Shown here: positions 1 to 18,359 of the stretch, in pieces
How positions within the stretch are numbered: the first letter of the stretch is position 1
Layout of the letters: each line of letters begins with the position of its first letter
Assembly: GCA_017462125.1 (NCBI GenBank)
Contig: JAFTRQ010000073.1
Span: forward strand, 1-20,064
Length of the DNA: 20,064 nucleotides
Reading direction: 5' to 3'
From: Clostridia bacterium
GTDB taxonomy: Bacteria > Bacillota_A > Clostridia > Oscillospirales > CAG-272
Made by a program: the position numbers and the translations under genes
Notes under the pieces: model-generated
Databases searched by the model: none
Told to the model about the DNA's origin: nothing
The model's input: only the letters and a program-made list of their open reading frames with translations

Positions 1-109
1 CACCCATAAGCATGAATGCAAAGTTGATTACGAAATAAATCGCAGAAAAGATGCCAATGGTGATTAAATCTTTTCCCTTCATTCGCATTGAGTTTTTTGA
101 ATTATTCAT
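1..109 (-). CDS. MptD-family putative ECF transporter S component (5' part only)
   Basis: Only the first 36 residues are inside the window; the gene continues past the left edge. The ATG is complementary to 107-109 and has a textbook ribosome site (AGGAGG within 111-120) one short spacer away. The N-terminus reads MNNSKNSMRMKGKDLITIG and then runs into a hydrophobic helix (IFSAIYFVINFAFMLMG). The KDLITIGIFSAIYFV opening is typical of the MptD/Trep_Strep family of putative energy-coupling-factor S components, which are membrane subunits that bind a small substrate and work with an EcfT/EcfA module. Assignment rests on this short segment and on the neighbouring ABC transporters. It has its own probable promoter and a leader palindrome (121-142). 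The substrate cannot be deduced. Another polytopic membrane protein with a similar start is possible. Confidence 0.6.
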   Translation of the reverse strand, partial: MNNSKNSMRMKGKDLITIGIFSAIYFVINFAFMLMG

Positions 110-120
110 GTAATCCTCCT

Positions 121-142
121 TTGGTTAGCATCGTCTAACCAA
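121..142 (-). promoter_or_regulatory. Palindromic leader element, site 1 (TTGGTTAG-N6-CTAACCAA)
   Basis: Perfect 8-base arms (121-128 and 135-142) are separated by 6 bases, directly abutting the ribosome site of the ECF S-component gene. The same core (GTTAG-N6-CTAAC) recurs just 5' of the ribosome sites at 8130-8151 and 12964-12985. Its 22-bp size and symmetry fit an operator for a dimeric TetR- or MarR-type repressor. In RNA it would form an 8-bp hairpin next to the Shine-Dalgarno sequence. No cognate TetR/MarR regulator gene is present in the window. Confidence 0.65.
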
Positions 143-182
143 TTGCTGTAAAATTAACGCCGTCTGTCGGGCGTCTTTGAAT

Positions 183-235
183 ATTATATATTTTTCTTCA
201 AATTTTTCTGCTCTAATTAGCCTTTTATGCTCCAA
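183..235 (-). promoter_or_regulatory. Probable promoter of the ECF S-component gene with AraC-type upstream element
   Basis: On the minus strand a perfect -10 TATAAT lies at 188-183. There is no TTGACA-like -35; the -35 position instead carries GAGCAGAAAA (213-204). Farther upstream are AAAGGC and TTGGAGC (235-229). The same three blocks in the same order precede the -10 of the ABC pair at 3902-3957. A good -10 with a poor -35 and a shared upstream element is the usual look of an activator-dependent promoter. The AraC-family gene at 3999-4955 is the obvious candidate activator (inference). Confidence 0.55.
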
Positions 236-334
236 GCAGACATTTTTTTGTAATCCGATATACTCTCAGTATAGTTGGTATTCCTTCTTGGGCAGAAAAA
301 CTGTCTAAAAAACAATGATACTGCCGCCATACTG

Positions 335-362
335 ATGGGGCAAGAGAAAAATCTTGCCCCAT
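335..362 (-). terminator. Strong hairpin, probable terminator of the YbtPQ-like ABC operon
   Basis: Perfect 11-bp stem (335-345 with 352-362) and a 6-base loop lie 16 bases past the stop codon of the preceding minus-strand gene. No U-run follows directly; the nearest T tract on the minus strand is about 23 bases on (312-307). It may therefore be a terminator with a displaced tract or an mRNA-stabilising 3' hairpin. Confidence 0.5.
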
Positions 363-378
363 TACGAACATAATAGTG

Positions 379-2112
379 TTACAGCTTCCAGCTTGCGGCG
401 GCTTCTCTTGCGTTGACAAAACGCCTATAGATGCCATCCTGTTGCATAAGCTCGTCGTGCTTGCCTTGCTGAACGATACGACCTTGCTCGACTACAAGAA
501 TCTGATCGGCATTGCGAACCGTTTTGAGTCGGTGGGCAATCATAATAATGGTTTTCTCGCTCGTCAGTGCCTCGATAGCCGTGACAAGATCCTTTTCGTT
601 CTCCGGGTCTACGTTGGCGGTTGCTTCGTCCAAAATAATGATGGGGGAATCCTTCATCATCGCTCTTGCGATGGAGATACGCTGTTTTTCGCCTCCCGAA
701 AGGCTTGCGCCGCCCTCACCTATGACCGTTTCATAACCGTCTGGCAACGCCATAATGAAATCGTGACAGCAAGCCTTCTTGGCTGCCTCGATCACCTTTT
801 CCATCGGTGCGTCGGGCTGACCGAAGCGGATATTGTTGGCAACGGTGTCCCCGAACAGGTACACGTTTTGGAATACAAAGCTGAAATTCTTCATTAAGCT
901 GTCCATACTGTATTCCCGCACGTCCGTACCGCCGAGCTTCACCGAGCCATCGTTTACATCCCAAAAGCGAGAAACCAAATTGCAAAGCGTAGTTTTGCCG
1001 CCTCCGCTTGGGCCTACGATCGCCGTGGTTGACTTCGCCGGAATATGAACGCTGATGCCGTCGATGATCTTGCGATCATCATATGAAAATGCAATATTCT
1101 CTACGTCGATATCGAAGGTGGAAGGCTTTTTATCTTCGCCGTCGATATCCATCGGTTTCACATCAAGAATTGCCTGTGCCTTATCCACGCTGGCATCCAC
1201 CGTGCGAAGGAGCGCGGAATAATTACCTGCCGAGTCAAGACTTGCATAGACCATAAAGGCAGAGATCATCATGCCGATGCAGACGATCAGCTCCATCGTG
1301 CCGTTCAGATAAAACCAAACGGACAGAAGCGCCATGACAACGCCCGTCATTTTCGTTACCAAGGATTGAACCGCCATATACGGTATAAAGGTCTTTTCAA
1401 GTGTGATATTGCAATCCACGTTTTCGTCTATAGCATCGTTCAATGCTTTTGAGGTAGAGCCTGTCAGATTATAGGCTTTGACCTCCGTGATTCCTTGTAT
1501 GTATTCAAGCAGCTTCTCCACAAGCGAGCTGTCTGCCGCCAGTTTTCTCGGTGACAATGCTTCGGATTTCTTCTGCATACGGCTGTTGACGAGGAAGAAC
1601 AGAACGATACCAATCAGAACAACAATTCCAATGCGCCAATCGTACACGAGAAGCATACAAGCAATCAATAAGGATGTCAGAATGCCTTGTGTTGTGAGCA
1701 TCACCACTCTTGTCGCAATATCTCCGAGCTGCTCCATGGTGTTGGTGGTGACGGAGGTAATATATCCAAGGCTGTTTTTATTGAAATAACCCATTGGAAC
1801 GTAACGCAGATGTTCTGCAATTTCAATACGTTTTCCTGCGGCAGTACCGTATCCAGCCTCGCATTGAAGCATGGTTGAACGGTATTTAACGATGAATGCA
1901 CCGAGAACGCTGATAACACAAATTCCGAGACTCGCCCAAATTGTTGCGGGCGTAACGCCTTTGCCGAGAACAGCACCGAGCATTACGATAATGGCGGGAA
2001 TTTTCAAGGCTTCAAACAGTGCCATGATCACGCCGTAAGCAATGGAACGGTAGAATTTTCCTTTGTTTTCCTTGCCGCAAAAGTTGAAGAATTTATTTAA
2101 GATTTTAAGCAT
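379..2112 (-). CDS. ABC transporter, fused permease-ATPase half, YbtQ/IrtB-like (second of pair)
   Basis: A half-size ABC protein of 577 residues: an N-terminal six-helix membrane domain (about residues 15-310) and a C-terminal nucleotide-binding domain with Walker A GPSGGGKT from residue 367, signature LSGGEKQR, Walker B IIILDEATA and H-loop IAHR. I place the start at MLKILNKFF because GGAGG sits 8 bases upstream; an in-frame upstream ATG lies inside the preceding gene and has no ribosome site. The first 8 bases overlap the end of the partner at 2105-3871, so the two are translationally coupled and probably form a heterodimer. The Walker B extension LDEATANVDPENE resembles the YbtP/YbtQ and IrtA/IrtB group, which have exporter folds but import ferric siderophores. 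Import and iron are inferences; a generic multidrug-type exporter is the alternative. Confidence 0.9.
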   Translation of the reverse strand: MLKILNKFFNFCGKENKGKFYRSIAYGVIMALFEALKIPAIIVMLGAVLGKGVTPATIWASLGICVISVLGAFIVKYRSTMLQCEAGYGTAAGKRIEIAEHLRYVPMGYFNKNSLGYITSVTTNTMEQLGDIATRVVMLTTQGILTSLLIACMLLVYDWRIGIVVLIGIVLFFLVNSRMQKKSEALSPRKLAADSSLVEKLLEYIQGITEVKAYNLTGSTSKALNDAIDENVDCNITLEKTFIPYMAVQSLVTKMTGVVMALLSVWFYLNGTMELIVCIGMMISAFMVYASLDSAGNYSALLRTVDASVDKAQAILDVKPMDIDGEDKKPSTFDIDVENIAFSYDDRKIIDGISVHIPAKSTTAIVGPSGGGKTTLCNLVSRFWDVNDGSVKLGGTDVREYSMDSLMKNFSFVFQNVYLFGDTVANNIRFGQPDAPMEKVIEAAKKACCHDFIMALPDGYETVIGEGGASLSGGEKQRISIARAMMKDSPIIILDEATANVDPENEKDLVTAIEALTSEKTIIMIAHRLKTVRNADQILVVEQGRIVQQGKHDELMQQDGIYRRFVNAREAAASWKL

Positions 2113-3871
2113 GAACGGCACCTCCTTCCACTGTATCCTTGACCGAGATATGCGCGTCCCACATATCTTTATACAAGCCGCCGCTTTCAAGCAGCTCCGT
2201 ATGTGTTCCCGATTCGACCACGTTGCCGTTTTTGATCACGAAAATACGGTCCGCATCCTGAATGGTTGACAAACGGTGTGCAATCACGATAAGCGTTTTA
2301 CCTTGAACGAGCTTTGCCACGGATGCCTGAATAATGGCTTCATTTTCGGGATCGGTATAGGCGGTAGCTTCGTCAAGGATCACGATAGGCGCATCTTTGA
2401 GCATAGCACGGGCAATGGCGATTCGTTGCCGCTCACCGCCCGAAAGGTGTCCGCCGCTGCCGCCGACAACGGTATCGTAGCCTTTGTCAAGTCCCATAAT
2501 AAAGTCGTGACAGCCGCTTTTTCTTGCGACTTCTTCTACCTCTGCATCGGTGGCTCCCGCGCGCCCCATACGGATATTTTCACGGATGGTATCGTCAAAG
2601 AGATAGTTGTCCTGTGCGACGTAAGCGACCTTACGGTTGTATTCCTCCAAAGAGAGCTCGCGGATATCCACACCGCCGATCTTGATACTGCCGCCCTTTA
2701 CATCCCAAAGCGAGGCGATCAGCTTTGCTATCGTGGACTTGCCGCTGCCGCTTGGACCGACCAAAGCGCAGACCTTGCCGCTCGGTATCTCCATATTAAT
2801 GCCGTGGAGAACCTCTTTTTCGTGATAACCGAAGGTAATATCAGTAAGCACAATAGAGTTATCTGCGGGAGTTGCCTTATCCTGTTTGGGACGAACCAAT
2901 TCTTCCTGTGTCAGAATACTTGTAACTTCGCCTACGATCGTACCGAGCTTTGCCATATCATCGGAATAACCCATCACGGTGATCAGCGGTTGAATGAGTC
3001 CGACCGACAGCAGAATGATCATAATAAAATCAATCGCCGCAAGAGTGCCGTTCATTACAAACAGACCGCCGAGGGGGAGCACCGTGATCATCGTACAAGG
3101 AGCTAAAACCATAGCAAGCGAGAACGGGATGTTGTTTTTCCGCATCCATTCCACATAGCAGGATGCACCATCCTTTGCCGCCACCGCGAAACGCTCATAG
3201 GAAGCGCCGGCTTTGCCAAACGCCTTGATGACCTGAATACCGTTGATATACTCCACAGAGGTATCGTTGAGTGTTTTCGTCTTGTTGATGGCATTCTGGT
3301 AGCTCTCCGCATAGCCGAACATCATGGTGCAGTAGCACAGAAGTCCGAGAACGAGCGGAATCAAGGTAATCAGAGCCATACGCCAATCAATGGTCAGCAT
3401 ATAAACAAACACACAAAGAGGGGCGAGCAAATTGGAGGTAAACTCCGGCAGAATGTGTGCCAATGTGGTTTCGATGCTGTCAAGACGCTCCATCATAATA
3501 TTCTTCAGCGTTCCCGATGGCGTATCCTTGACATAGCCGAGAGGGACACGGGAGAGCTTATCGCAAAGTTGCTTGCGAACCTCACCCAGCACGTGGAATG
3601 TTGCAACATGGGAGCAGGTGGTGGAGATGTTGTGTCCAACGATCTTACCGATAAAGCAAAGTGCTATCCAAAGTCCCTGCATCAGATAGAATGACCATTC
3701 TCGATTACCCTCCACAAGATTGCGGATGATATTGCCCGTCAGTATAAACGGCACAATACCGCACTGTACGCCGAACACCGCAAGCAGAACGCTTGCAACA
3801 TACAGCTTCTTCTTCCGACCGGCAAAGGACATGACCCACCCAATCGGTGATGTTTTCTTTTCTTTCTTCAT
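2105..3871 (-). CDS. ABC transporter, fused permease-ATPase half, YbtP/IrtA-like (first of pair)
   Basis: 588 residues: a membrane domain followed by an ATPase domain with Walker A GPSGSGKST from residue 372, LSGGERQR, Walker B IVILDEATA, and the LDEATAYTDPENE stretch typical of the YbtPQ/IrtAB subgroup. An ATG 9 codons further upstream (3898) is in frame but has no ribosome site and sits only 3 bases from the -10 TATAAT at 3907-3902, so transcription would begin about there. The start chosen (MKKEKKTSP) has AGGAGG at 3888-3883, 11 bases away. It is first in a two-gene operon with the half-transporter at 379-2112. The AraC gene lies immediately upstream, an order that recalls ybtA-ybtP-ybtQ. 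Substrate and direction are not shown by the sequence. Confidence 0.9.
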   Translation of the reverse strand: MKKEKKTSPIGWVMSFAGRKKKLYVASVLLAVFGVQCGIVPFILTGNIIRNLVEGNREWSFYLMQGLWIALCFIGKIVGHNISTTCSHVATFHVLGEVRKQLCDKLSRVPLGYVKDTPSGTLKNIMMERLDSIETTLAHILPEFTSNLLAPLCVFVYMLTIDWRMALITLIPLVLGLLCYCTMMFGYAESYQNAINKTKTLNDTSVEYINGIQVIKAFGKAGASYERFAVAAKDGASCYVEWMRKNNIPFSLAMVLAPCTMITVLPLGGLFVMNGTLAAIDFIMIILLSVGLIQPLITVMGYSDDMAKLGTIVGEVTSILTQEELVRPKQDKATPADNSIVLTDITFGYHEKEVLHGINMEIPSGKVCALVGPSGSGKSTIAKLIASLWDVKGGSIKIGGVDIRELSLEEYNRKVAYVAQDNYLFDDTIRENIRMGRAGATDAEVEEVARKSGCHDFIMGLDKGYDTVVGGSGGHLSGGERQRIAIARAMLKDAPIVILDEATAYTDPENEAIIQASVAKLVQGKTLIVIAHRLSTIQDADRIFVIKNGNVVESGTHTELLESGGLYKDMWDAHISVKDTVEGGAVHA

Positions 3872-3901
3872 AACTGCAAAAGCCTCCTTTTCTGACATAC
3901 T

Positions 3902-3957
3902 ATTATACCGCTTTCGGCTTTTCTTTTCTGCTCCGATCTGACGGCCTTTGGCTCCAA
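3902..3957 (-). promoter_or_regulatory. Promoter of the ABC pair with direct repeats suited to an AraC activator
   Basis: A perfect -10 TATAAT lies at 3907-3902 on the minus strand with no TTGACA-like -35. GGAGC occurs twice as a direct repeat with a 21-base period (plus-strand complements at 3930-3934 and 3951-3955), so the proximal copy touches the -35 position. Two helical turns between half-sites, with the near one overlapping -35, is the classical geometry of AraC-family activation sites. The blocks TTGGAGC, AAAGGC and GAGCAGAAAA are shared with the element at 183-235. Confidence 0.6.
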
Positions 3958-3965
3958 AAAGAAGG

Positions 3966-3992
3966 AAAAGCGGCTCATAACGAACCGCTTTT
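3966..3992 (-). terminator. Intrinsic terminator after the AraC gene
   Basis: An 11-bp stem (3966-3976 with 3982-3992, one G-U pair) and a 5-base loop lie 6 bases past the AraC stop codon. On the minus strand the stem ends in UUUU and is followed by CCTTCTTTTT. It separates the long upstream operon from the ABC-pair promoter. Confidence 0.75.
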
Positions 3993-3998
3993 GATGAT

Positions 3999-4955
3999 TT
4001 ACAAATTATGATTCCGATACTCGTTCGGTGTCATGCCTATCACCGTCTTAAATGCGCTTGCAAACTTACTGCCGTTGTCATAGCCGTAAAGTCCTGCAAT
4101 CTCCAAAACGCTTTTGTCTGTGGTAATAAGCATTTGTGCAGCAGACTCCATTTTTTGCGTTCGGATGAAAGCATACAAGGAGACACCGTAAACCGCCTTG
4201 AAAGCATCCTTGATCTGCGTACCCGAGATATGGAACTGACTCGACAACTGTTCCAAGGTCAGTTTTTTATCCATATTGTCGGTGAGATACCGGCGCACAC
4301 ACTTTGCCAAGGAAACCTGCGCGCGAGAGACAAACCGCTCCTCACTTTTGTTCTTGACATCAAAGCCGAGGAGAAACAGCATCAGCTCCAGTATTTTAAC
4401 CTTGAAATATCCCTTTTTGATACTGTCGTGAACATCGTATAGCTCGGAGAAAACATGGTCGATGTGTTCGTTGGAGCGTACAACAAAGCCCTTGTTATCC
4501 GAGCAGAACTTTTGGGCAAGCGCTTCGGGGCTGACGTTTACATCGACGAGAAAGCAAGAGAGGCATTTGGGCGCTTCGTCAATGTCGATATAGATGCTGA
4601 CACCGTGATAATGGCTAAGCGGGAAATACGAGCCGTGTCCCACATCGTTTTTGTAAGCGATCGAGAGATCTCCTGCGGTGAGATAGATATATTCGTCCGA
4701 AAATTCACACTCGATTCTGCCTTCTCTGCAATGGTCGATCTGAATGACGTTTCCAAAGGAAACCGGCTCTATATGGCACTCCTGCATATGAACGTCGTTA
4801 TATACGAGTTCAATGCCGGGAAAGACCTTGTAGCAGGTCATCACAATGTCACCGCCATTTTTATCCGTAAGCCGATAAACCGTGCAATCTTCTTCTCTTG
4901 ATACGATCTCCACGCCGTTTCCGTATATATTTTTCTCCCTTTGCGTTGCCTCCAT
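3999..4955 (-). CDS. AraC-family transcriptional regulator
   Basis: 318 residues. The last ~105 residues (about 214-318) form the two-helix-turn-helix AraC/XylS domain: LTLEQLSSQFHISGTQIKDA for the first HTH, SVLEIAGLYGYDNGSKFASA for the second, closing with GMTPNEYR. The N-terminal ~200 residues are an effector or dimerisation region that I cannot assign to a named domain. The frame is open upstream to 5081, but that part overlaps a small membrane-protein gene (4982-5110). I chose MEATQREKN, which follows AAGGA at 11 bases; the start is less certain than the gene. It lies at the end of the exporter operon, just before the activator-type promoter at 3902-3957. Arrangement and family suggest it activates the ABC pair and perhaps the ECF gene in response to an imported ligand (inference). 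Confidence 0.9.
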   Translation of the reverse strand: MEATQREKNIYGNGVEIVSREEDCTVYRLTDKNGGDIVMTCYKVFPGIELVYNDVHMQECHIEPVSFGNVIQIDHCREGRIECEFSDEYIYLTAGDLSIAYKNDVGHGSYFPLSHYHGVSIYIDIDEAPKCLSCFLVDVNVSPEALAQKFCSDNKGFVVRSNEHIDHVFSELYDVHDSIKKGYFKVKILELMLFLLGFDVKNKSEERFVSRAQVSLAKCVRRYLTDNMDKKLTLEQLSSQFHISGTQIKDAFKAVYGVSLYAFIRTQKMESAAQMLITTDKSVLEIAGLYGYDNGSKFASAFKTVIGMTPNEYRNHNL

Positions 4956-4981
4956 GATCCGATTAGTCCTTCTGCTCCTTT

Positions 4982-5110
4982 TTATCGATTTCTTATCGCA
5001 TTTGGTTGATATCTTTTTCCAATATTTTTTGAGTGCGCCATACCGAAAATCAGTATCGCAACGACTGCGAGTGCGATCCAAAGTTCGGGAGTTTTCAATA
5101 CTTCAAGCAT
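4982..5110 (-). CDS. Small single-span membrane protein, 42 residues
   Basis: A short gene between the FtsX-type permease and the AraC regulator. The ATG (complement of 5108-5110) has GGAGG at 5123-5119, 8 bases upstream, one of the best ribosome sites in the operon, and begins 18 bases after the permease stop codon. The product starts MLEVLKTPELW, has one hydrophobic helix of about 14 residues (IALAVVAILIFGMA) and ends in a basic tail (KNIGKRYQPNAIRNR). It would sit in the membrane with the positively charged C-terminus in the cytoplasm. I do not recognise a family. Position suggests an accessory or regulatory subunit of the adjacent ATPase/permease pair, by analogy with small proteins that modulate transporters; this is inference. 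Confidence 0.7.
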   Translation of the reverse strand: MLEVLKTPELWIALAVVAILIFGMAHSKNIGKRYQPNAIRNR

Positions 5111-5128
5111 TGCAGGTACCTCCTATTT

Positions 5129-7399
5129 TTATTCCGCACCCTTGAGTGCTTCGACCATATCGATCTTCTTGTTCTTTCTTGCGACCATCAAACCGACGAG
5201 GAGTGAAACACCAAATGTCAGCGCAATACTGATCACAAAGGTTGACCATCCAAGCGCCAAGGACAGCTCGTATTCGCTGACAAGCGCGGTAACGAGAATT
5301 TTCAATACGCCAAGTCCTGCCGGAATACCGATGATCACACCGATCACGGTCAGCCATATATTCTGCGTAATCAGCAGCTTTCCGATGGCTTTGTCACGGA
5401 AACCAAGTACCTTCAAGGTGGCAAGCTCACGGTGACGCTCGGTATAGCTCATAACCCCGAGGTTATAGAGAACCACAAGTCCGAGAACGATTGCCGCCAC
5501 GGCGAGCACAACGATCATGACATTCATAATATCCATAAAAGTATCGTAGGAATCCATGATTGTCTGTTTGTCCTGTTTACCCGAGATCAAGGTCGAGTTT
5601 TCGACATCCTCGGAGGCTGTGTCGGAATAAATGGTATTGACCGCATATTCTACGCCAATGCTTTCCGCATAGGTGTCGGTCATCACGATGCTCTCGCTGA
5701 TGAGCGAACGGAAATATCCGGCGACCTTTGTGGTATAAGTTTCATCGCTTCCGTAAGGCGAGAACTCGATCGTATCTCCGATGCTTGCGGTATCCTTGAG
5801 ACGAAGACAGAGATATACTCCATCATCTCCAAGCGTCATCGGTTTGTTTTCCTCGGTCAGAAATCCGATCTTTTCGATGTCGGAATTGTAAATTTCAAGT
5901 GAAAGTGTTTTTCCCTCATAGCTGATCCCACTTGTAGATTGCCAATCTCCGTCAAGCTCTTCTGCAAGAGCGAACGCATCCTCTTTCGCCGTTCCCTCGG
6001 AGAGAATGACCTTGGTAGTATAGTTGCTCACGTCGTTGTCGAGCGTATCGAGGAAGAACATCATACTGTCGCGCATACCGAAGCTGCCCACGAGCAGAAG
6101 CGTACATCCTATCACGCCAACAAGCGTCATTGCCGAGCGTGCCTTGTGGCGAAGGATATCACGCGCGTTCCACTTCGTTCCGAAGGAGAGATTCTTCCAG
6201 AACGGGAGTTTTTCGATGATGCTCTTTTTCATTGCCTTTGGCGTATAAGGACGGAGTGCGTCTGCCGCCGTTCCTTTCAGCATTTTCTTGACCGACAGGA
6301 AACTGATCAGCGTAAGAAATACAAGCATCAGAACCATCACGGGAATGCAGAAGGCGGGCATATGCAAATTCCAATCGGGCATATCGAGATAAGTCCCCAT
6401 CATTCCGTTCGGGCTGATGATGATGGACGCCACGAGATAGCCGAGTACGATACCGAGAACCGTACCAATCAGACCAATCATAAGTCCGTAGGAGGTGTAA
6501 TGGAACAGTATCTTTCGGTCACGGAAGCCGAGTGCTTTGAGCGTACCGATCTGTACCTTTTCATTGGCGGCAATTCTGTGCATGGTAGTTACCATCGTTA
6601 AAATAGCGATGGCAAGGAACAGCACGGGCAAAATAGAACCCATTGTTTTTCCTTCCTCTGCTTCTCCTGTCACGCCTGCGTATGCTACGTGTTCGTTTTT
6701 AGAGGTAACGAGGAAGGTGGTTCCCGTAGCGTCCTTGATCTTTTCTTCAAGCTCTGCCTTGTCGATATCCGAGATGATATTGATCTGCGGATAGAATGCA
6801 AAGCCGAGTGCGTCCTTCAGATTGACCGGGGAGACGTAAGCAAATCCGAAGGCTTCATAATCGGGCATCAGCTGATTTTCATCTGCCACGGCGATGAGAT
6901 TTTCACCGCTTTTAACAAGTCCTACCACCGTATCCTTGATCTCTATTCCTTGGTAAGTCAAGGTCAGCTCGTCGCCAATTTTGATACCGTTAGCATACGC
7001 AAATTTGTCCGAAAGCCAGATACCTTCGGCATTTTCATTGTATTCCTCGCCGACCGTCACCAGCATAGTGGAAACGGTATAGTTTTCCGAAACGTTCAGC
7101 GCAAGGGATTTTTTCGTGTCCTTGATCCCGACGTTTACGCTAAAATATCTTGTCGCCGCATCTACGCCGTCGATGTCACCGATTGCCTTGATATCGTCCA
7201 CCGTAAATCCCGTTTCGGAATAGAGACGGTAATCGGCATATTTGGTTTGATCCATAAAGGAGAAGGCGTCCTTTTCCAGACTGTACCATTCGATATTGAA
7301 GCCAAGAAAAATACCGACACCGATGGCGATCATAATGACCATCGAAACAAACTGCGATTTATAGCTCCACGCGGTTCTGAATAATTTTCTGATTAACAT
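5129..7399 (-). CDS. Large FtsX-type ABC transporter permease
   Basis: 756 residues. An N-terminal transmembrane helix (about 17-40) is followed by a large extracytoplasmic domain (about 45-255) and a first FtsX membrane block whose cytoplasmic segment reads NEKVQIGTLKALGFRDRKIL. After a second helix near 425 comes another extracytoplasmic domain, then a C-terminal FtsX block with the matching segment RHRELATLKVLGFRDKAIG. The duplicated layout is that of long Firmicutes permeases of the macrolide/antimicrobial-peptide or lipoprotein type (MacB superfamily, type VII), not the short four-helix HrtB type. It starts 6 bases after the stop of its ATPase (7406-8107), so the pair forms one transporter. 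Such systems usually couple ATP hydrolysis to periplasm-side or envelope-side movements rather than to transport through the membrane; the substrate is unknown. Confidence 0.9.
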   Translation of the reverse strand: MLIRKLFRTAWSYKSQFVSMVIMIAIGVGIFLGFNIEWYSLEKDAFSFMDQTKYADYRLYSETGFTVDDIKAIGDIDGVDAATRYFSVNVGIKDTKKSLALNVSENYTVSTMLVTVGEEYNENAEGIWLSDKFAYANGIKIGDELTLTYQGIEIKDTVVGLVKSGENLIAVADENQLMPDYEAFGFAYVSPVNLKDALGFAFYPQINIISDIDKAELEEKIKDATGTTFLVTSKNEHVAYAGVTGEAEEGKTMGSILPVLFLAIAILTMVTTMHRIAANEKVQIGTLKALGFRDRKILFHYTSYGLMIGLIGTVLGIVLGYLVASIIISPNGMMGTYLDMPDWNLHMPAFCIPVMVLMLVFLTLISFLSVKKMLKGTAADALRPYTPKAMKKSIIEKLPFWKNLSFGTKWNARDILRHKARSAMTLVGVIGCTLLLVGSFGMRDSMMFFLDTLDNDVSNYTTKVILSEGTAKEDAFALAEELDGDWQSTSGISYEGKTLSLEIYNSDIEKIGFLTEENKPMTLGDDGVYLCLRLKDTASIGDTIEFSPYGSDETYTTKVAGYFRSLISESIVMTDTYAESIGVEYAVNTIYSDTASEDVENSTLISGKQDKQTIMDSYDTFMDIMNVMIVVLAVAAIVLGLVVLYNLGVMSYTERHRELATLKVLGFRDKAIGKLLITQNIWLTVIGVIIGIPAGLGVLKILVTALVSEYELSLALGWSTFVISIALTFGVSLLVGLMVARKNKKIDMVEALKGAE

Positions 7400-7405
7400 A
7401 TCCCA

Positions 7406-8107
7406 TCACCACTCGATCTCATCCGCGCTGATGGGATTTTCCTGTTCTTCATAGGATTTGATCTTACCGTTTTTTACACGCACCACCACGTCTGCCATCT
7501 TCGCAATATTTTGATTATGCGTAACGATTACGATGGTCTTGCCATAATTCTTCGCCATAGACAAAAGCAGTTTGAGAACAAGAACGCCTGTTTCGGAGTC
7601 GAGTGCGCCCGTAGGCTCGTCGCAAAGGAGAATCTTCGGGTTCTTCGCAAGCGCGCGAGCGATAGAAACACGCTGTTGTTCGCCTCCCGAAAGCTCCGAC
7701 GGAAAGTTATTCAGATGGTCGGACAATCCTACCTCCGCAAGCATCTGCTCTGCGGAGAGTGCATCGGGAGCGATCTCCTTAACAAGAGCCACGTTCTCCT
7801 TGACCGTCAGCGTGGGGATGAGGTTGTAAAACTGAAAGACAAAGCCGACCGTGGAGGCGCGGTAATCCGCAAGCTCGTTGTTCGTGAGCGTGGAGATATC
7901 CTTGCCGTTTACCTTGATCGTGCCGCTTGTCGGGCTGTCAAGACCGCCAAGCATATTAAGAAGCGTTGATTTTCCCGCACCCGAGGGGCCGAGAATAACG
8001 ACGAATTTGCCTTCCTCCAAGGTCATATCCACGCCGTCAAGAGCTTTGAGTTCGTGATCTCCCGTTTTATAAATACGGGTTACGTTCTGAAATTCTACAA
8101 GTGCCAT
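7406..8107 (-). CDS. ABC transporter ATP-binding protein, LolD/MacB type
   Basis: 233 residues, a complete stand-alone ATPase of usual family length. Walker A is GPSGAGKST (residues 40-48), with the Q-loop region [14 protein letters not shown], signature LSGGEQQR, Walker [13 protein letters not shown] and H-loop VTHN. The DEPTGALD and [11 protein letters not shown] motifs are typical of the LolD/MacB/FtsE group, which partners FtsX-like permeases, here the next gene at 5129-7399. The ribosome site is AAGGAA at 8118-8113. The 48-base gap to the preceding DUF454 gene contains a palindrome (8130-8151), so this gene may be a point of internal control within the long operon. Confidence 0.93.
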
Positions 8108-8129
8108 TTGCGTTCCTTCTTTCTTTGCA

Positions 8130-8151
8130 GCCGTTAGCGGTTGCTAACCGC
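8130..8151 (-). promoter_or_regulatory. Palindromic leader element, site 2 (GTTAG-N6-CTAAC)
   Basis: The core arms GTTAG (8133-8137) and CTAAC (8144-8148) flank 6 bases, with outer bases matching in part. It lies 11 bases 5' of the ribosome site of the ATPase gene, in the same relative place as the sites at 121-142 and 12964-12985. The sequence can also fold as GCGGTT-AGC-AACCGC. No promoter is evident beside it, so an operator at this spot would act as a roadblock or on an unrecognised internal promoter. Confidence 0.55.
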
Positions 8152-8156
8152 TTGGT

Positions 8157-8585
8157 CTAAATATTGCAATCGCTGTTTTGCGATTGCTCGATTTCATTTT
8201 CTTCTTTTGGTTTATATTTCTTCACGCCGAAGATGAAGTACAGAATGTGGAACAGCCATACACCGCTGAGAATTGCGCAAGGGATATACAAATCCTTGCG
8301 GAACATCATAAAGAAGCCAAATCCCATCAAAAGCGTAACGGTGATCATAATCTTGATCTTGGTGTGCCAAGTCATGCCTTGCCCCTTAACAAAGGATTCA
8401 AGATTGTTCTTATATAGCTTTGTTCCGATGAACCACTTATGTAATCTCTCCGAGCTTTTTCCAAAGCTGATCAGCGCAAGCATCAGAAAAGGAAACGCCG
8501 GGAGCATGGGAATGACTGCGCCGACAGCTCCGAGTCCAAGACCAATAAAGCCGAGGGTGAGCCATAATATTTTTTTAGCTTTCAT
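8157..8585 (-). CDS. DUF454 (YbaN-type) inner-membrane protein
   Basis: 142 residues. The N-terminal part, LGFIGLGLGAVGAVIPMLPA followed by FPFLMLALISFGKSSERLH, is the signature of the DUF454/YbaN family: a glycine-rich helix hairpin with a conserved proline loop, then a short amphipathic stretch. Two further helices follow (about 78-96 and 102-120) and a charged C-terminal tail. An in-frame ATG 14 codons upstream lies within the YgbA-like gene; I prefer MKAKKILWL, which has GGAG 10 bases upstream and overlaps that gene by 11 bases (translational coupling). The biochemical role of DUF454 is not established. In this operon it sits next to the YgbA-like protein and the CydDC-like exporters, which suggests an envelope or stress role. 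Confidence 0.85.
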   Translation of the reverse strand: MKAKKILWLTLGFIGLGLGAVGAVIPMLPAFPFLMLALISFGKSSERLHKWFIGTKLYKNNLESFVKGQGMTWHTKIKIMITVTLLMGFGFFMMFRKDLYIPCAILSGVWLFHILYFIFGVKKYKPKEENEIEQSQNSDCNI

Positions 8586-8925
8586 TTTGTTCTTTCTCCA
8601 ATCGTTTCTTTTCCTTTTTACTATCAATCACGTGCCTGATCGCCATAATCGGATGGCTGAATATCATCCGAGGTCCTGAAAAACGCATAACTTCTCGGAT
8701 TTTCTCACGCATTTCGGGCTTGTAGCAATGGACGCGGCAGTTGGAGCAAAAGGTCTTGGTTTCCATAAAGGGACACTTGTCGCTCCGCATCATAGCGTAC
8801 TGTGTCAGCGCCTCGCATTCGGGACAAAGTGTTTTCTTTGTCCCGTGCTTTTTCTTACAATAGAGGCTGATCATCAAGGCGACCGTGCGCTTTTCGCGCT
8901 CGCGCTTGGATTCAATTTTGTTCAT
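8575..8925 (-). CDS. YgbA-like nitrous oxide-stimulated promoter family protein
   Basis: 116 residues, soluble, basic at both ends, with seven cysteines (23, 34, 37, 51, 60, 63, 67) in the arrangement C-x10-C-x2-C-x13-C-x8-C-x2-C-x3-C. The core CPECEALTQYAMMRSDKCPF and FCSNCRVHCY, then a conserved YKPEMREKIREVMRFSGPRM segment, identify the family named after a nitrous oxide-stimulated promoter (E. coli YgbA is NO-inducible). The cysteines look like a metal or Fe-S site (inference). The ribosome site GGAGG lies 8 bases upstream inside the preceding ABC gene, and the two genes overlap by 14 bases. The family's molecular function is not established to my knowledge. Its place between CydC-like and DUF454 genes suggests a role in nitrosative, metal or tetrapyrrole stress. 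Confidence 0.88.
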   Translation of the reverse strand: MNKIESKREREKRTVALMISLYCKKKHGTKKTLCPECEALTQYAMMRSDKCPFMETKTFCSNCRVHCYKPEMREKIREVMRFSGPRMIFSHPIMAIRHVIDSKKEKKRLEKEQNES

Positions 8926-10597
8926 ACATCTTGCCTCCTTCTACACGATAAATTCGGTCTGCGATCGCCATCGTGGACTCACGGTGGGATACGAGAATAA
9001 TACTTTTCTTGTTCTTCTGCTCTTTGAGAGCTTTCAATATAATACCTTCGTTTATGCTGTCCACGTTGCTCGTCGGCTCGTCGAGAAGGATCAGCTCGCT
9101 GCCGCGCAGGAACGCACGGGCAAGTCCAATACGCTGTTTCTCACCTGCCGAGAGGTTATCTCCGAGTGCGCCGACCTTTGTTTTATATCCGTCGGGGAGT
9201 GTGAGGATAAAATCGTGGATAGATGCAAGCTTGCAAGCCGCTTCGATCTCTTCCTGTGTGGCATCGGGCTTGGCGATACGAAGGTTATCTTCAATGGTTT
9301 CGTCAAACAGATAGGTGACTTGGCTGACCATCGTGACGTTATCGAGCAGGCTGTCGCCGTCGAGGCTATCAATATCAATACCGTTATACTCGATGTTACC
9401 TTTACTCTTTTGCCAGAAGCGGAGTAAGAGCTTGAGAAAGGTGGATTTTCCGCATCCCGACTCACCGACAATACCGATGATCTCGCCCTTTTCGGTGTGC
9501 ATACAGATGTCGGTCAGCACCTCGGTTTCTCCGTCGTAGGAGAAGGAAAGGTCGGTTACTTTGAGGTCGTTATATTGGATTTTCTTGCCGTTCTGAACGG
9601 GAGTTACCGCAGGTTCTTCTGCAAGGAGATTCAGCACACGGTCGCCACTTGCAAAGGTCTGCGTGAGGTTTCCGGGCAGAGCCGAGATCGCAATCACTGG
9701 GCCGAACGAACCGAACACGGCAACCACGCCGATAACCATTCTGCCGACCGAGAGCATATCTGCGGCAACAAGAGCGATGCCGACCGAAAGCGTTGCGATA
9801 ATGAACAGAGATACGCAAAGTTCGGTTGCTGCACTTGCTTTGGTAATGTCATGCTTCATCGCCTTGATTTCACGGAGCAGAATGTCAGATCGGTCATTGA
9901 CCTCCTTTTCACGTTCCTTGCCTGCGTTGTTAAGAACGATATCCTTGATGCCTTTGATACTGTCAAGGAAGTAGGCATTAAAGCCTGCAAACTCGGCACG
10001 GTATTTCACGCCCGATGCTTTGAGCTTGGACGAGGATATGATCGGAACGATGATACCGATGGTAATAAATCCGAGGAGTGCGATCAATGCGAGATACCAG
10101 CTTGAAACAAATCCTACAAAGAGGAACACGCAGGTCGATACGATAACTGCGATACAAATGGGCGAGATCGTGTGCGCGTAGAATACTTCGAGCGTTTCAA
10201 TATCCGAAGTGATCATAGCAATGATCGAACCCTTTTGCTTGCTTTCGAGCTTCGCAGGGCAAAGCTCACGGAGTGCGCCGAAGATTTTATCACGGAGTAC
10301 CGCAAGCAAACGGAATGCGATATAGTGGTTGCTGTACTGCTCCAAATAGCGTAAGAGTCCACGAAGCACACCGCAACCGATGGCAAGTCCGATAATCAGT
10401 CCGTAAGAGAGCGCGATAGCCTCGCCGAGAGCCTTGGCAACGCCGATTGCACCCATCAAAGTAACGCCCATCGCGCAGATGAATCCGACCGAGCCGTTGA
10501 TCACGGCAAGGATCATAAAATAGGCAAGACTGCCGAGAAGGAGGATAAGATTCGCCATAATTACAGCGCCGCTTCTGCGAAGTTTTGGCTTTTTCAT
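8912..10597 (-). CDS. ABC transporter, fused permease-ATPase half, CydC-like
   Basis: 561 residues: six hydrophobic helices in about residues 13-310, then an ATPase domain with Walker A GESGCGKST from residue 378, signature LSAGEKQR, Walker B LILLDEPTSNVD and H-loop SHRES. It starts with an ATGA overlap to the upstream half-transporter (10594-12333) and has GGAGG 7 bases upstream, so the two are made together and probably form a heterodimer. The best general match is the CydC/CydD-type class of half-transporters (thiol and possibly haem export in E. coli), but no cytochrome bd genes are nearby, so I call it CydC-like only. Followed, with a 14-base overlap, by the YgbA-like gene. Confidence 0.9.
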   Translation of the reverse strand: MKKPKLRRSGAVIMANLILLLGSLAYFMILAVINGSVGFICAMGVTLMGAIGVAKALGEAIALSYGLIIGLAIGCGVLRGLLRYLEQYSNHYIAFRLLAVLRDKIFGALRELCPAKLESKQKGSIIAMITSDIETLEVFYAHTISPICIAVIVSTCVFLFVGFVSSWYLALIALLGFITIGIIVPIISSSKLKASGVKYRAEFAGFNAYFLDSIKGIKDIVLNNAGKEREKEVNDRSDILLREIKAMKHDITKASAATELCVSLFIIATLSVGIALVAADMLSVGRMVIGVVAVFGSFGPVIAISALPGNLTQTFASGDRVLNLLAEEPAVTPVQNGKKIQYNDLKVTDLSFSYDGETEVLTDICMHTEKGEIIGIVGESGCGKSTFLKLLLRFWQKSKGNIEYNGIDIDSLDGDSLLDNVTMVSQVTYLFDETIEDNLRIAKPDATQEEIEAACKLASIHDFILTLPDGYKTKVGALGDNLSAGEKQRIGLARAFLRGSELILLDEPTSNVDSINEGIILKALKEQKNKKSIILVSHRESTMAIADRIYRVEGGKMYEQN

Positions 10598-12333
10598 TTC
10601 GTCACCTCCGCGTAGCCTTCTTCAAGGTTCTTCTGTGTAGTATAAAGTTTGGCGTAACCCCCGCACTTTTCCATCAGCTCGTCGTGTGTTCCGCTTTCCT
10701 TCAGCTCGCCCGATTCCATATAGTAAATAAGGTCGGACGGAACTACGTTGGCAAGACGGTGAGAAATCACGATAACCGCCTTTTCTCTCGACAGAGCCTT
10801 GATATTTGCCATAATAATGGCTTCACTCTCGATATCAATATTGCTTGTGGCTTCGTCGAACACGTAAATGTCCTTGTTTGCCACGAGATTGACCGCAAGG
10901 GCGAGTCTTTGCTTCTGACCGCCCGAAATGTTGGCAGCATCCTCGGTGATCACCTTGTCAAGACCGCCGTTCTCACGGATGAAGTCAAGAAGATTGACCT
11001 TTTCAAGTACCGTATAGATTTCCTCGTCGGTCACGTTTTTATTGGCAAGTATAAAGTTTGCTCTGACCGTTTCATTGAAAATATATGTGTTGTAGCTTAC
11101 AACCGCAAGGTGCGAGTAGTAGGACTCACGGGAAAGGCTATCAAGCGCTTTACCGCCAACCGTGACAACACCTGATTTCGGTCTGAACGCGCCGAACAGC
11201 ATATTGACCACGGTGGATTTACCGCATCCCGATTCACCGACGATTGAGGTCATGCCTTGCTTAGGGAAGGTCATTGTCACATTCTTCAGCACGTCACGCT
11301 TGCCGTCGTAGGAGAAGGTCACGTTATCGACCTTGAGTTCGGTATCCTCTACCGCTTCTTCACCCCAAACGGGATCGGGCTGTTCAAGAAGCGAAAGTAT
11401 CTTCTTTCCGGCAGATGCACCGTTCATAGCGATATGGAACGCCGAGCCGAAGGCACGGAGCGGAAGGAAGAAGTCCACCGCTACAAGAATAAGGAACAGA
11501 GCCGCTACGGGAGATAAGCTCCAATTCGTTACGGCAATGATGGACATGGCAATACCAAGACCTGCGCCGCCGTATGCCACCAAATCCATAATGGTGGTGC
11601 TTGCGAGCTGCATCACAAGGACTTTCATTGTGATCTTGCGGAAATCCTCGCTCGTTTCGTTCATTTTGCCGTGCTGTGCTTCATCTGCTTTGAAAATTTT
11701 AAGCTCCTTGAGTCCCTGAACGCTGTCGAGGAAGGAGTCGCCCATGGAGGTGTACTTGCCCCAATATTTTGCAAAAATCCGCTTTGCCCATTTGGAAACG
11801 GCAACGATGGATACGGGGATCAGCGGAACACAGCAAAGCAGAACGAGCGCGACCTGCCATTGAATGCCGACCGTAATGCCAAACAGAATGAAGGGCGCGA
11901 GCATTGCGTAGAAGAACTGCGGAATGTAGGAGGAATAGTAGAGGTCGAGCTGCTCTACACCCTCCATCGAAACCTGCGTAAGCCCTGCCATGCTCATACC
12001 GTCGGTAGAGCGAACGCCGAGTTTGACAATCTTGTTGTAAACGCGCTCACGAAGGTCTTTCTTTGCCTTTCTGCCGAGGGTGTCTTTGAGATCACCGACA
12101 AGGCGAGTGGTCGTGTATCGGATTGCAATTCCGACCACGGCACAAACGGCAGGCCATAAGAAGATGACCGCCCCTCCGCTGTATTCGTTGTAATGTATGG
12201 CAAGGTTGATTGCCCAACAAATTGAGGCAGTTATACCTACGTTGGCGAACAATCCAACCACCATTAAAGCGACGGTGTAGAATATGTATTTCTTGTTTCC
12301 TCCGAGTAATCGGAGAAGGTTTTTATCGATCAT
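10594..12333 (-). CDS. ABC transporter, fused permease-ATPase half, CydD-like
   Basis: 579 residues. An N-terminal membrane domain is followed by an ATPase domain with Walker A GESGCGKST from residue 366, signature ISGGQKQR, Walker B IYVFDEATSNID and H-loop SHRLA. The usual Walker-B leucine is replaced by phenylalanine (VFDEATS), also seen in some CydD-type proteins. The start MIDKNLL is fixed by an ATGA overlap with the stop codon of the methyltransferase gene; a longer in-frame reading upstream would run inside that gene. The ribosome site is weak, so translation probably depends on coupling to the methyltransferase. It likely dimerises with 8912-10597. Substrate unknown; amino-acid, thiol or tetrapyrrole-like export are possibilities from the family. 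Confidence 0.9.
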   Translation of the reverse strand: MIDKNLLRLLGGNKKYIFYTVALMVVGLFANVGITASICWAINLAIHYNEYSGGAVIFLWPAVCAVVGIAIRYTTTRLVGDLKDTLGRKAKKDLRERVYNKIVKLGVRSTDGMSMAGLTQVSMEGVEQLDLYYSSYIPQFFYAMLAPFILFGITVGIQWQVALVLLCCVPLIPVSIVAVSKWAKRIFAKYWGKYTSMGDSFLDSVQGLKELKIFKADEAQHGKMNETSEDFRKITMKVLVMQLASTTIMDLVAYGGAGLGIAMSIIAVTNWSLSPVAALFLILVAVDFFLPLRAFGSAFHIAMNGASAGKKILSLLEQPDPVWGEEAVEDTELKVDNVTFSYDGKRDVLKNVTMTFPKQGMTSIVGESGCGKSTVVNMLFGAFRPKSGVVTVGGKALDSLSRESYYSHLAVVSYNTYIFNETVRANFILANKNVTDEEIYTVLEKVNLLDFIRENGGLDKVITEDAANISGGQKQRLALAVNLVANKDIYVFDEATSNIDIESEAIIMANIKALSREKAVIVISHRLANVVPSDLIYYMESGELKESGTHDELMEKCGGYAKLYTTQKNLEEGYAEVTK

Positions 12334-12947
12334 AATTTCATTTTCCGCGCCGTCACGCAGAGCCATCCTTTCTCGTTTTTGTCAATTTGAATATCCGTAA
12401 AGCCTGCATTCGCAAGAAATGCGCGAAGCTGCTCGCCGTTGTAGATGGTCATACCGTCGATCTTTTCAGCCCATTTATCGTCCTTGTTCGTATCTCCGGT
12501 GGATTCGTTGCAGATCATAAAGCATCCGTGTGGTGCAAGAACACGGTAGATTTCGCCCAAGCACTTTTCAATCTCCGGCCAAAAGTAGATGGTTTCAAAT
12601 GCGGTAACAACGTCGAAGCTGTTCTCGGAGAACGGCAGAGCAAGAGCACTACCTTCGATAACGTCGCATCTTCCGTCGGCAATTGCTTTTCGATTGACCT
12701 GTCGTGATTTCTCAACACTTACGGGCGAATAATCGAGTCCGCTTACACGACCGCGCGGACAAAGCGCAAGCATTTTTTTGATGTTGGCACCGCCACCGCA
12801 TCCAACGTCGAGGACGGAAGAATTCTCCGCAATCTTTATATGTTTCATCCCCCACTCAGCCATAGCGCTATGACCGCTGTTCATCATGGCAACCATGATC
12901 TTGCCGCCAAAGCCTTGGGGCTTTCTTGTATTTTCAAAAAATGACAT
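12330..12947 (-). CDS. Class I SAM-dependent methyltransferase
   Basis: 205 residues with a Rossmann-type methyltransferase core: motif I VLDVGCGGGAN (residues 45-55), the acidic residue after strand 2 in GLDYSP, motif for strand 4 FDVVTAFETIYFWP, and the IYRVLAPHGCFMICNES segment. This is the Methyltransf_11/UbiE-like group. I chose MSFFENTRK because GGAGG lies 5 bases upstream (12957-12953) and because the leader palindrome lies 5' of it; a start 10 codons further upstream would cover that leader element. It is first in the long operon and overlaps the CydD-like gene by ATGA. Methyl acceptor unknown; in this setting it could modify the molecule that the exporters carry (inference). Confidence 0.9.
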   Translation of the reverse strand: MSFFENTRKPQGFGGKIMVAMMNSGHSAMAEWGMKHIKIAENSSVLDVGCGGGANIKKMLALCPRGRVSGLDYSPVSVEKSRQVNRKAIADGRCDVIEGSALALPFSENSFDVVTAFETIYFWPEIEKCLGEIYRVLAPHGCFMICNESTGDTNKDDKWAEKIDGMTIYNGEQLRAFLANAGFTDIQIDKNEKGWLCVTARKMKL

Positions 12948-12963
12948 ACTAACCTCCAAAGAA

Positions 12964-12985
12964 TTGGTTAGCAACAACTAACCGC
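12964..12985 (-). promoter_or_regulatory. Palindromic leader element, site 3 (GGTTAG-N6-CTAAC)
   Basis: TTGGTTAG (12964-12971), 6 bases, CTAACCGC (12978-12985), located 6 bases 5' of the methyltransferase ribosome site and about 45 bases into the predicted transcript. The arm nearer the gene (CTAACC on the minus strand) could instead pair with GGTTAG at 12954-12949, which includes two bases of the Shine-Dalgarno sequence, so two mutually exclusive hairpins are possible. Confidence 0.65.
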
Positions 12986-12998
12986 ACATTTTTTAATT

Positions 12999-13030
12999 AG
13001 CGAACACCATAGCAGTTAGCGTTCGCTTAC
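12999..13030 (-). promoter_or_regulatory. Degenerate second operator and hairpin at the transcription start
   Basis: GTTAG-N6-CTTAC at 13015-13030 matches the leader palindrome at all but one base of the 5-base arms and covers the expected transcription start, 6 bases after the -10. The same stretch also contains a 7-bp inverted repeat, AGCGAAC at 12999-13005 with GTTCGCT at 13021-13027. A repressor bound here would block initiation. Confidence 0.5.
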
Positions 13031-13036
13031 TCGGAT

Positions 13037-13065
13037 ATTATATCATAAAATCTAAAAAATTACAA
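13037..13065 (-). promoter_or_regulatory. Sigma-A promoter of the long transport operon
   Basis: On the minus strand: -35 TTGTAA (13065-13060), 17-base spacer, -10 TATAAT (13042-13037). It gives a leader of about 80 bases before the methyltransferase start. Confidence 0.7.
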
Positions 13066-18331: not shown

Positions 18332-18359
18332 GAACTGCGGACTCTTTACTCATCCTTAT
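18295..18359. repeat. Compound inverted repeat at the 3' end of the recombinase gene
   Basis: Three nested pairs of arms: ATAAGGAT (18295-18302) with ATCCTTAT (18352-18359), AAAGAGTCC (18310-18318) with GGACTCTTT (18339-18347), and CAGTT (18320-18324) with AACTG (18333-18337). The outer arm covers the recombinase stop codon. On the minus strand it lacks an adjacent U tract (A residues follow; a T7 run is at 18293-18287), so it may be a terminator with a displaced tract, the terminal structure of the element, or part of a recombination site. Confidence 0.7.

Follow-up and report, generated by a model that had tools for sequence, protein, structure and literature searches.

The question raised by a 20,064-nucleotide stretch of a Clostridia bacterium genome (assembly GCA_017462125.1, contig JAFTRQ010000073.1, positions 1 to 20,064; Oscillospirales, CAG-272), hereafter called the window, is which regulator reads the palindrome GTTAG-N6-CTAAC (the box) that stands before several of its transporter and methyltransferase genes. 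The initial annotation had proposed one regulator for the whole cluster, with TetR or MarR as candidate families. We instead read the box as a variant iron box, the operator of a short DtxR-family iron repressor, and the window cluster as part of an iron-starvation programme, a reading to which we give a probability of about 85% because of the sum of a class-wide tie between box and DtxR gene, the presence of boxes at feo loci, and the geometry of the operator. All genome-wide evidence comes from relatives of the window's host, whose loci and genomes are labelled L and G, respectively.

Three exact copies of the box occur in the window (124-139, 8133-8148, and 12967-12982) and none in 100 dinucleotide shuffles, while up to one mismatch yields four sites (shuffle mean 0.31, maximum 2), the additional one lying at 13015-13030, 48 bp from the third copy. 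With up to two mismatches there was no surplus of box-like sites in the window (five found versus 4.66 expected), and only these four copies are therefore counted. The exact copies are the cores of the 22-base palindromes of the initial annotation, which also placed them correctly at 0, 11, and 6 bases from Shine-Dalgarno-like sequences; its description of near-identical 22-mers with constant arms and spacer holds for the ten core bases and one spacer end (C on the plus strand), but the other spacer and outer bases vary. Predicted iron box 1 (124..139) immediately precedes the ribosome site of an ECF S-component-like gene, box 2 (8133..8148) lies inside the 49-bp gap from a DUF454 gene to a LolD-like ATPase gene, and box 3 (12967..12982) in the leader of a methyltransferase operon. 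Box 4 (13015..13030) covers the expected transcription start of the same operon, as had been proposed, and begins six bases downstream of a promoter match on the minus strand (TTGTAA-N17-TATAAT, with TG before the second hexamer, 13037..13065) that is a match to consensus only. Neither the AraC gene (3999-5081) nor the first ABC pair (379-3898) is preceded by a box with up to one mismatch, so that a single DNA-binding regulator is supported for all sites but not for the whole cluster.

The box is conserved at related loci, and its spacing is exact. An alignment of 31 methyltransferases was used to fetch the loci of the best 80 of 575 relatives, and at least one exact box was found in 33 of these 80, i.e., in 32 of 49 outside a mostly Bacteroidales remainder and in 1 of 31 inside it. 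The 49 loci (825 kb) were selected by the methyltransferase alone and not by the box, and in them GTTAG-Nx-CTAAC has 47 distinct sites at a spacer of 6, one at a spacer of 0, and zero at spacers 1-5 and 7-16; the remaining 31 loci hold it once at spacer 6 and once at spacer 15. The palindrome, spacer of exactly 6 included, recurs at related methyltransferase loci. Of the 47 spacer-6 sites, 37 are upstream, by at most 400 bp, of a gene resembling a reference set and two lie inside such a gene, a count that is partly circular since the reference set consisted of 18 proteins from the window and boxed loci. The symmetrised profile of 127 distinct sites reads RGTTAG-N6-CTAACY, with an inner G avoided (6%), and 13 of 30 neighboring box pairs less than 150 bp apart are separated by 34-36 bp, both sets taking in loci that were fetched because they hold the box.

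Beyond the methyltransferase loci, the box keeps a distinctive company. It occurs 165 times in the 19 genomes reached via these loci, versus 24 times for a reversed-pattern control. Sixty regions were read in three batches of 20, the last consisting of ten regions (L185-L194) chosen for a known box, nine of them also for a known DtxR gene, and ten from three exceptional genomes (G109, G229, and G250); the families of thirty proteins were checked by domain search and the rest by eye. Boxes precede feoA (L114), feoB (L119), FTR1 (L118), ApbE (L103), and DUF3793 (L100, L110, L122, and L137, with flavodoxin behind it in L100, L122, and L137), lie behind a 4Fe-4S protein gene (L107), and stand before ABC pairs that come after TetR genes (L101, L105, and L113) and before a Trep_Strep ECF gene that itself comes after an AraC gene (L104). 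In L139, they precede DtxR, feoA, and feoB alike, and a DtxR gene adjoins feoA and/or feoB with boxes in L139, L185, L187-L192, and L194. FeoB was located in 15 of the 19 genomes (G004, G007, G009, and G012 being left out). Nine of the 32 FeoB genes there, no two of them in one genome, have an exact box at most 1 kb upstream of their domain match. The closest box is 1.5-1.7 kb upstream of FeoB in two Faecalibacterium genomes, with DUF3793 and two feoA genes between them in G003. In G001, the closest relative by methyltransferase, 8 of 9 exact sites are at feoB, a CydD-like ABC gene, DUF3793-flavodoxin, or TetR-ABC. A regulator specific to this cluster does not agree with boxes at other genes in relatives' genomes. 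Such occurrence elsewhere had been listed as a finding that would count against the proposal; the box is indeed not private to the cluster, yet iron uptake is the function of many of the other genes, and we therefore regard the boxed genes as a regulon.

The feo loci also offer a comparison with published physiology. In Faecalibacterium duncaniae A2-165, ferrous sulfate is reported to repress feoB in the feoA1A2BC operon while leaving the fused feoAB unrepressed (PMC10781979). Exact boxes head the DUF3793-feoA-feoA-feoB run of G003, which is related to F. duncaniae, and upstream of the fused feoAB of G005 no box with one mismatch or fewer was found over the 1.1 kb covered. The boxes agree with the feoAB contrast, which was compared in related genomes rather than in the strain of that study, in an only partly clean manner, since a one-mismatch box stands before the fused gene of G003. 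As a separate observation, DUF3793 was found behind boxes in L100, L110, L122, L126, and L137 (Pfam-checked except in L122, which was identified by eye), and in L126 it stands before feoA-feoA-feoB; we consider it a candidate iron-starvation protein.

The number of boxes follows a DtxR gene across the class. PF01325 matches are present in 19 of the 19 methyltransferase-reached genomes, but this family is common everywhere. We scored 291 genomes of G001's class with a DtxR profile (matches listed at E 1e-6), of which 181 had strong, 47 weak, and 63 no matches. Mean boxes per genome were 3.83, 1.23, and 0.65 in these groups, versus 1.99, 2.26, and 1.70 for the reversed-pattern control, and 52 of 55 box-rich genomes had a strong DtxR match. 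Strong Fur (88 genomes) and strong DtxR (181) occur together in 19 genomes (odds ratio 0.07), and the 69 genomes with strong Fur and without strong DtxR have 62 boxes versus 155 control sites (means 0.90 versus 2.25), although these co-occurrence statistics ignore kinship and the strong/weak cut-offs were set after the tables were seen. Box number tracks the short DtxR-family protein and not Fur, and strong DtxR and strong Fur largely exclude each other.

Proximity points the same way. Box places were listed for 21 genomes, 15 of which had a DtxR place among the matches listed, and of the 16 DtxR genes listed in these 15 genomes, 13 (spread over 13 genomes) have a box at a distance of no more than 600 bp, where uniform placement would give 0.04; the corresponding count for TetR is 5 of 96 genes (in 3 genomes), where 0.23 would be expected.

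The form of the box suits this protein family as well. The IdeR 19-mer consists of four CCTAA repeats, each read by one monomer, and the site of one IdeR dimer is TTAGG-N4-CCTAA (both from PMC8464063). Rewritten, the latter is TTAG-N6-CTAA, i.e., the geometry of the box, which has a spacer of 6 in 47 of 48 distinct sites over the scanned spacers 0-16. Because the additional G/C stands on the outer instead of the inner side of each arm (inner G in 6%), we regard the box as a variant of the DtxR-family operator. It shares with the IdeR/DtxR operator of Actinobacteria (TTAGGTTAGSCTAACCTAA) TTAG and CTAA at six-base spacing, an association with iron genes, and a DtxR-family protein, but differs in its outer G..C and in forming single-dimer sites, often paired at a distance of 34-36 bp, whereas IdeR has an overlapping two-dimer 19-mer. 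The DtxR-family proteins of the relatives, at about 120-150 residues, are also too short for the SH3-like third domain. PF01325 and PF02742 were over cut-off in both proteins checked (L139 and L158), and the nearest solved chains are MntR, DtxR, and IdeR, with MntR nearest. Iron choice has been tied to Met10 and Cys102, with Asp/Asn and Glu in MntR (PMC10317159). Cys stands in the place of IdeR Cys102 in 24 of the 25 proteins aligned and in all nine box-adjacent proteins from the last region batch, which have N (seven) or M (two) at the Met10 position; the single DtxR match of G001 has Met and Cys at positions 10 and 102.

Several observations, in addition to the limits of the co-occurrence statistics, weigh against the DtxR reading. 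Six of the 21 genomes were left out of the adjacency set, their weaker DtxR places not being among the matches listed, and TetR adjacency in the 15 others is also above chance. In nine genomes chosen by their methyltransferase, an exact box is found no further than 1 kb from 5 of the 20 PF01325 genes that exceed the cut-off (5 of 29 counting all matches) and from 6 of 58 TetR genes, a weak contrast in a set whose methyltransferase loci often have TetR alongside. Box-rich G109 has no DtxR match at E 1e-6 but does have boxes at feoA-feoB (L175, feoA by eye), G229 and G250 have weak matches only, and 17 of the 181 strong-DtxR genomes have zero exact boxes. Some boxes stand by genes without an evident iron role (e.g., L120, L128, L133, and L135) or have unclear neighbors (L128-L131), no box lies within 2 kb upstream of any FeoB in 4 of the 15 genomes (G002, G011, G013, and G018), upstream of the G003 fused feoAB there is a box with one mismatch, though no exact one, and the promoter match looked for at box 2 of the window was not found. 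Among the proteins, the Met10 position is D in 16, N in 5, and M in 4 of the 25 aligned (G001 among the last), and the box-adjacent DtxR-like protein of G018 (L167, which is the same as L118, beside FTR1), left out of this alignment, has PF01325 without PF02742 and without the ligands, while PF01325 matches twice more in G018, once over cut-off. Finally, the window's host is presumed, from its relatives, to have this DtxR.

A TetR (or MarR) repressor, with each operon carrying its own copy, would suit the size and symmetry of the box, and TetR genes indeed precede boxed operons in L001, L010, L012, L014-L016, L020, L021, L101, L105, and L113 and are near boxes above chance in both the nine and the 15 genomes. 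These TetR genes, beside transporter or methyltransferase operons, form at least two groups with weak likeness; the flanking TetRs of L001 and L015, for instance, are weakly alike (E about 1e-4), yet the box is identical. At other such loci, the window included, an AraC gene is found in place of TetR, no TetR gene is near an exact box in G016, G017, or G019, where boxes are near DtxR (G016 and G017) or feoA/feoB (all three), and the feo loci of the last region batch have no TetR gene by eye. With TetR genes beside boxes a minority (5/96 and 6/58; MarR was not searched genome-wide) and box number and, in the 291-genome sample, adjacency following the DtxR-family gene, TetR is disfavored as the common regulator, and we consider this explanation unlikely. 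Fur, the usual iron regulator of low-GC bacteria, would account for the iron regulon, sharing its physiological role and target genes, and Fur-family genes are present in 239 of the 291 genomes. It belongs to another protein family, however, and the box is unlike the Fur box; moreover, the near exclusion of strong Fur by strong DtxR and the deficit of boxes in Fur-strong genomes leave Fur the least probable of the readings considered here. As boxes are not more frequent in genomes with Fur, it was rejected as the box regulator.

The palindrome might also function at the RNA level, as a leader hairpin that is bound by a protein or controls translation, rather than as a DNA site, given that all three exact copies adjoin ribosome sites and that the window leaders at 105-180, 8105-8205, and 12945-13032 (minus strand) each fold into two hairpins (z of -3.3, -4.4, and -2.5 for the whole leader). 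The arms, however, are without covariation: of 67 distinct TTAG-N6-CTAA sites, 47 have G..C as their outer pair, and among the 20 others this pair is Watson-Crick in only 2 (A..T 1 and T..A 1, versus A..C 8, G..T 8, T..C 1, and C..T 1). Copy 4 lies over the expected transcription start, the distance from box to gene start varies, some sites lie between divergent genes (L060, L121, and L187), and Rfam returned no family at gathering score, only sub-threshold matches, so we leave this reading a very slim chance. A second stable hairpin, unrelated to the box, lies shortly upstream of it in every boxed leader, and an additional RNA role of these leaders beside the DNA operator is conceivable. A DtxR-family manganese regulator of the MntR type would differ from the DtxR reading only in its metal, and the relatives' proteins resemble MntR of Bacillus subtilis and E. 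coli in two-domain size, in nearest solved chain, and in D or N at the Met10 position (21 of 25). Since the metal site is mixed (D, N, or M), manganese retains some chance; the Cys instead of Glu at position 102, a regulon with feoAB and FTR1 rather than manganese genes, the M and C of G001, and the ferrous repression of feoA1A2BC in F. duncaniae reported in PMC10781979 make it very unlikely nonetheless.

Under the DtxR reading, a gene outside the window would encode the repressor, a short protein of about 120-150 residues. A single Fe2+-loaded dimer would occupy each box and read its two GTTAG arms with its two winged helices, one arm per helix, and paired boxes, most often 34-36 bp apart, would take two dimers. 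In iron-rich cells, the occupied boxes at promoters and leaders would then block the methyltransferase-CydDC operon, the LolD-FtsX pair, and the ECF gene, whereas in iron-poor cells the boxes would be freed. Binding, the metal, and repression are predicted here from comparative evidence.

We further consider it fairly probable that a short DtxR, recognizing a box code of its own (RGTTAG-N6-CTAACY), serves as master iron regulator instead of Fur in much of the class of the window's relatives, that it also acts in Collinsella and Olsenella relatives and in a Sphaerochaeta, and that the methyltransferase, CydDC-like, and LolD-FtsX genes of the window represent new iron-starvation functions. Low-GC Gram-positives have been described as using Fur for iron and keeping DtxR-type regulators for manganese (a 2023 review, PMC10317159), and the titles and abstract openings of part of the matches to our literature search contained no description of this box or regulon. 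Our results suggest that many gut Clostridia, including Faecalibacterium and Blautia genomes, have an iron regulon of DtxR type whose operator is distinct. If true, a 16-base pattern would make it possible to recognize iron-starvation genes in the genomes of uncultured organisms, among them methyltransferases and transporters whose substrate is unknown, and "Fur or DtxR" would become a directly testable question by lineage.

All genes of the window cluster lie on the minus strand, in the order methyltransferase, CydD-like, CydC-like, YgbA_NO, DUF454, LolD-like ATPase, FtsX-like, AraC, ABC pair, and the start of the ECF S-component-like gene, and the boxes precede the methyltransferase (two boxes), the LolD-like ATPase, and the ECF S-component-like gene. 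The class I methyltransferase (12330..12947), first gene of its boxed operon, is followed by ABC half transporters that are CydD-like (10594..12366; 45% identity to the one of L121, which is divergent from feoB with boxes between) and CydC-like (8912..10597; match under the curated cut-off), and by a YgbA_NO family protein (8575..8925) and a DUF454 protein (8157..8627). The LolD/MacB-like ATPase (7406..8107), like an ABC ATPase of L109, has a box directly upstream, and is followed by an FtsX-like permease (5129..7399; family matches far under curated cut-offs). The unboxed AraC-family regulator (3999..5081; true start probably near 4970) precedes a pair of ABC exporter-fold half transporters, of which the first (2105..3898) has 85% identity to an L001 counterpart with a box 22 bp upstream, and the second (379..2190) has an uncertain true start. 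The ECF S-component-like protein (2..109), cut by the window edge, resembles the box-following Trep_Strep protein of L104 (41% identity over 29 aa, E 2e-4).

The methyltransferase and one-mismatch box of L006 (Claveliimonas) share 96.6-99.5% identity over 0.9-1.7 kb with Anaerostipes, Agathobaculum, Avitreponema, and Blautia records, and near-identical box-bearing methyltransferases occur in L004, L006, L007, L009, and L013, where this gene appears to have spread horizontally and recently. L039 and L047, from records named Negativibacillus and Dorea, have 16.9 kb around the methyltransferase in common at 99.9% identity. In the window itself, positions 18356-19978 encode a serine recombinase of 540 residues with Resolvase, Recombinase, and zinc-ribbon domains, which suggests that a mobile element adjoins the cluster.

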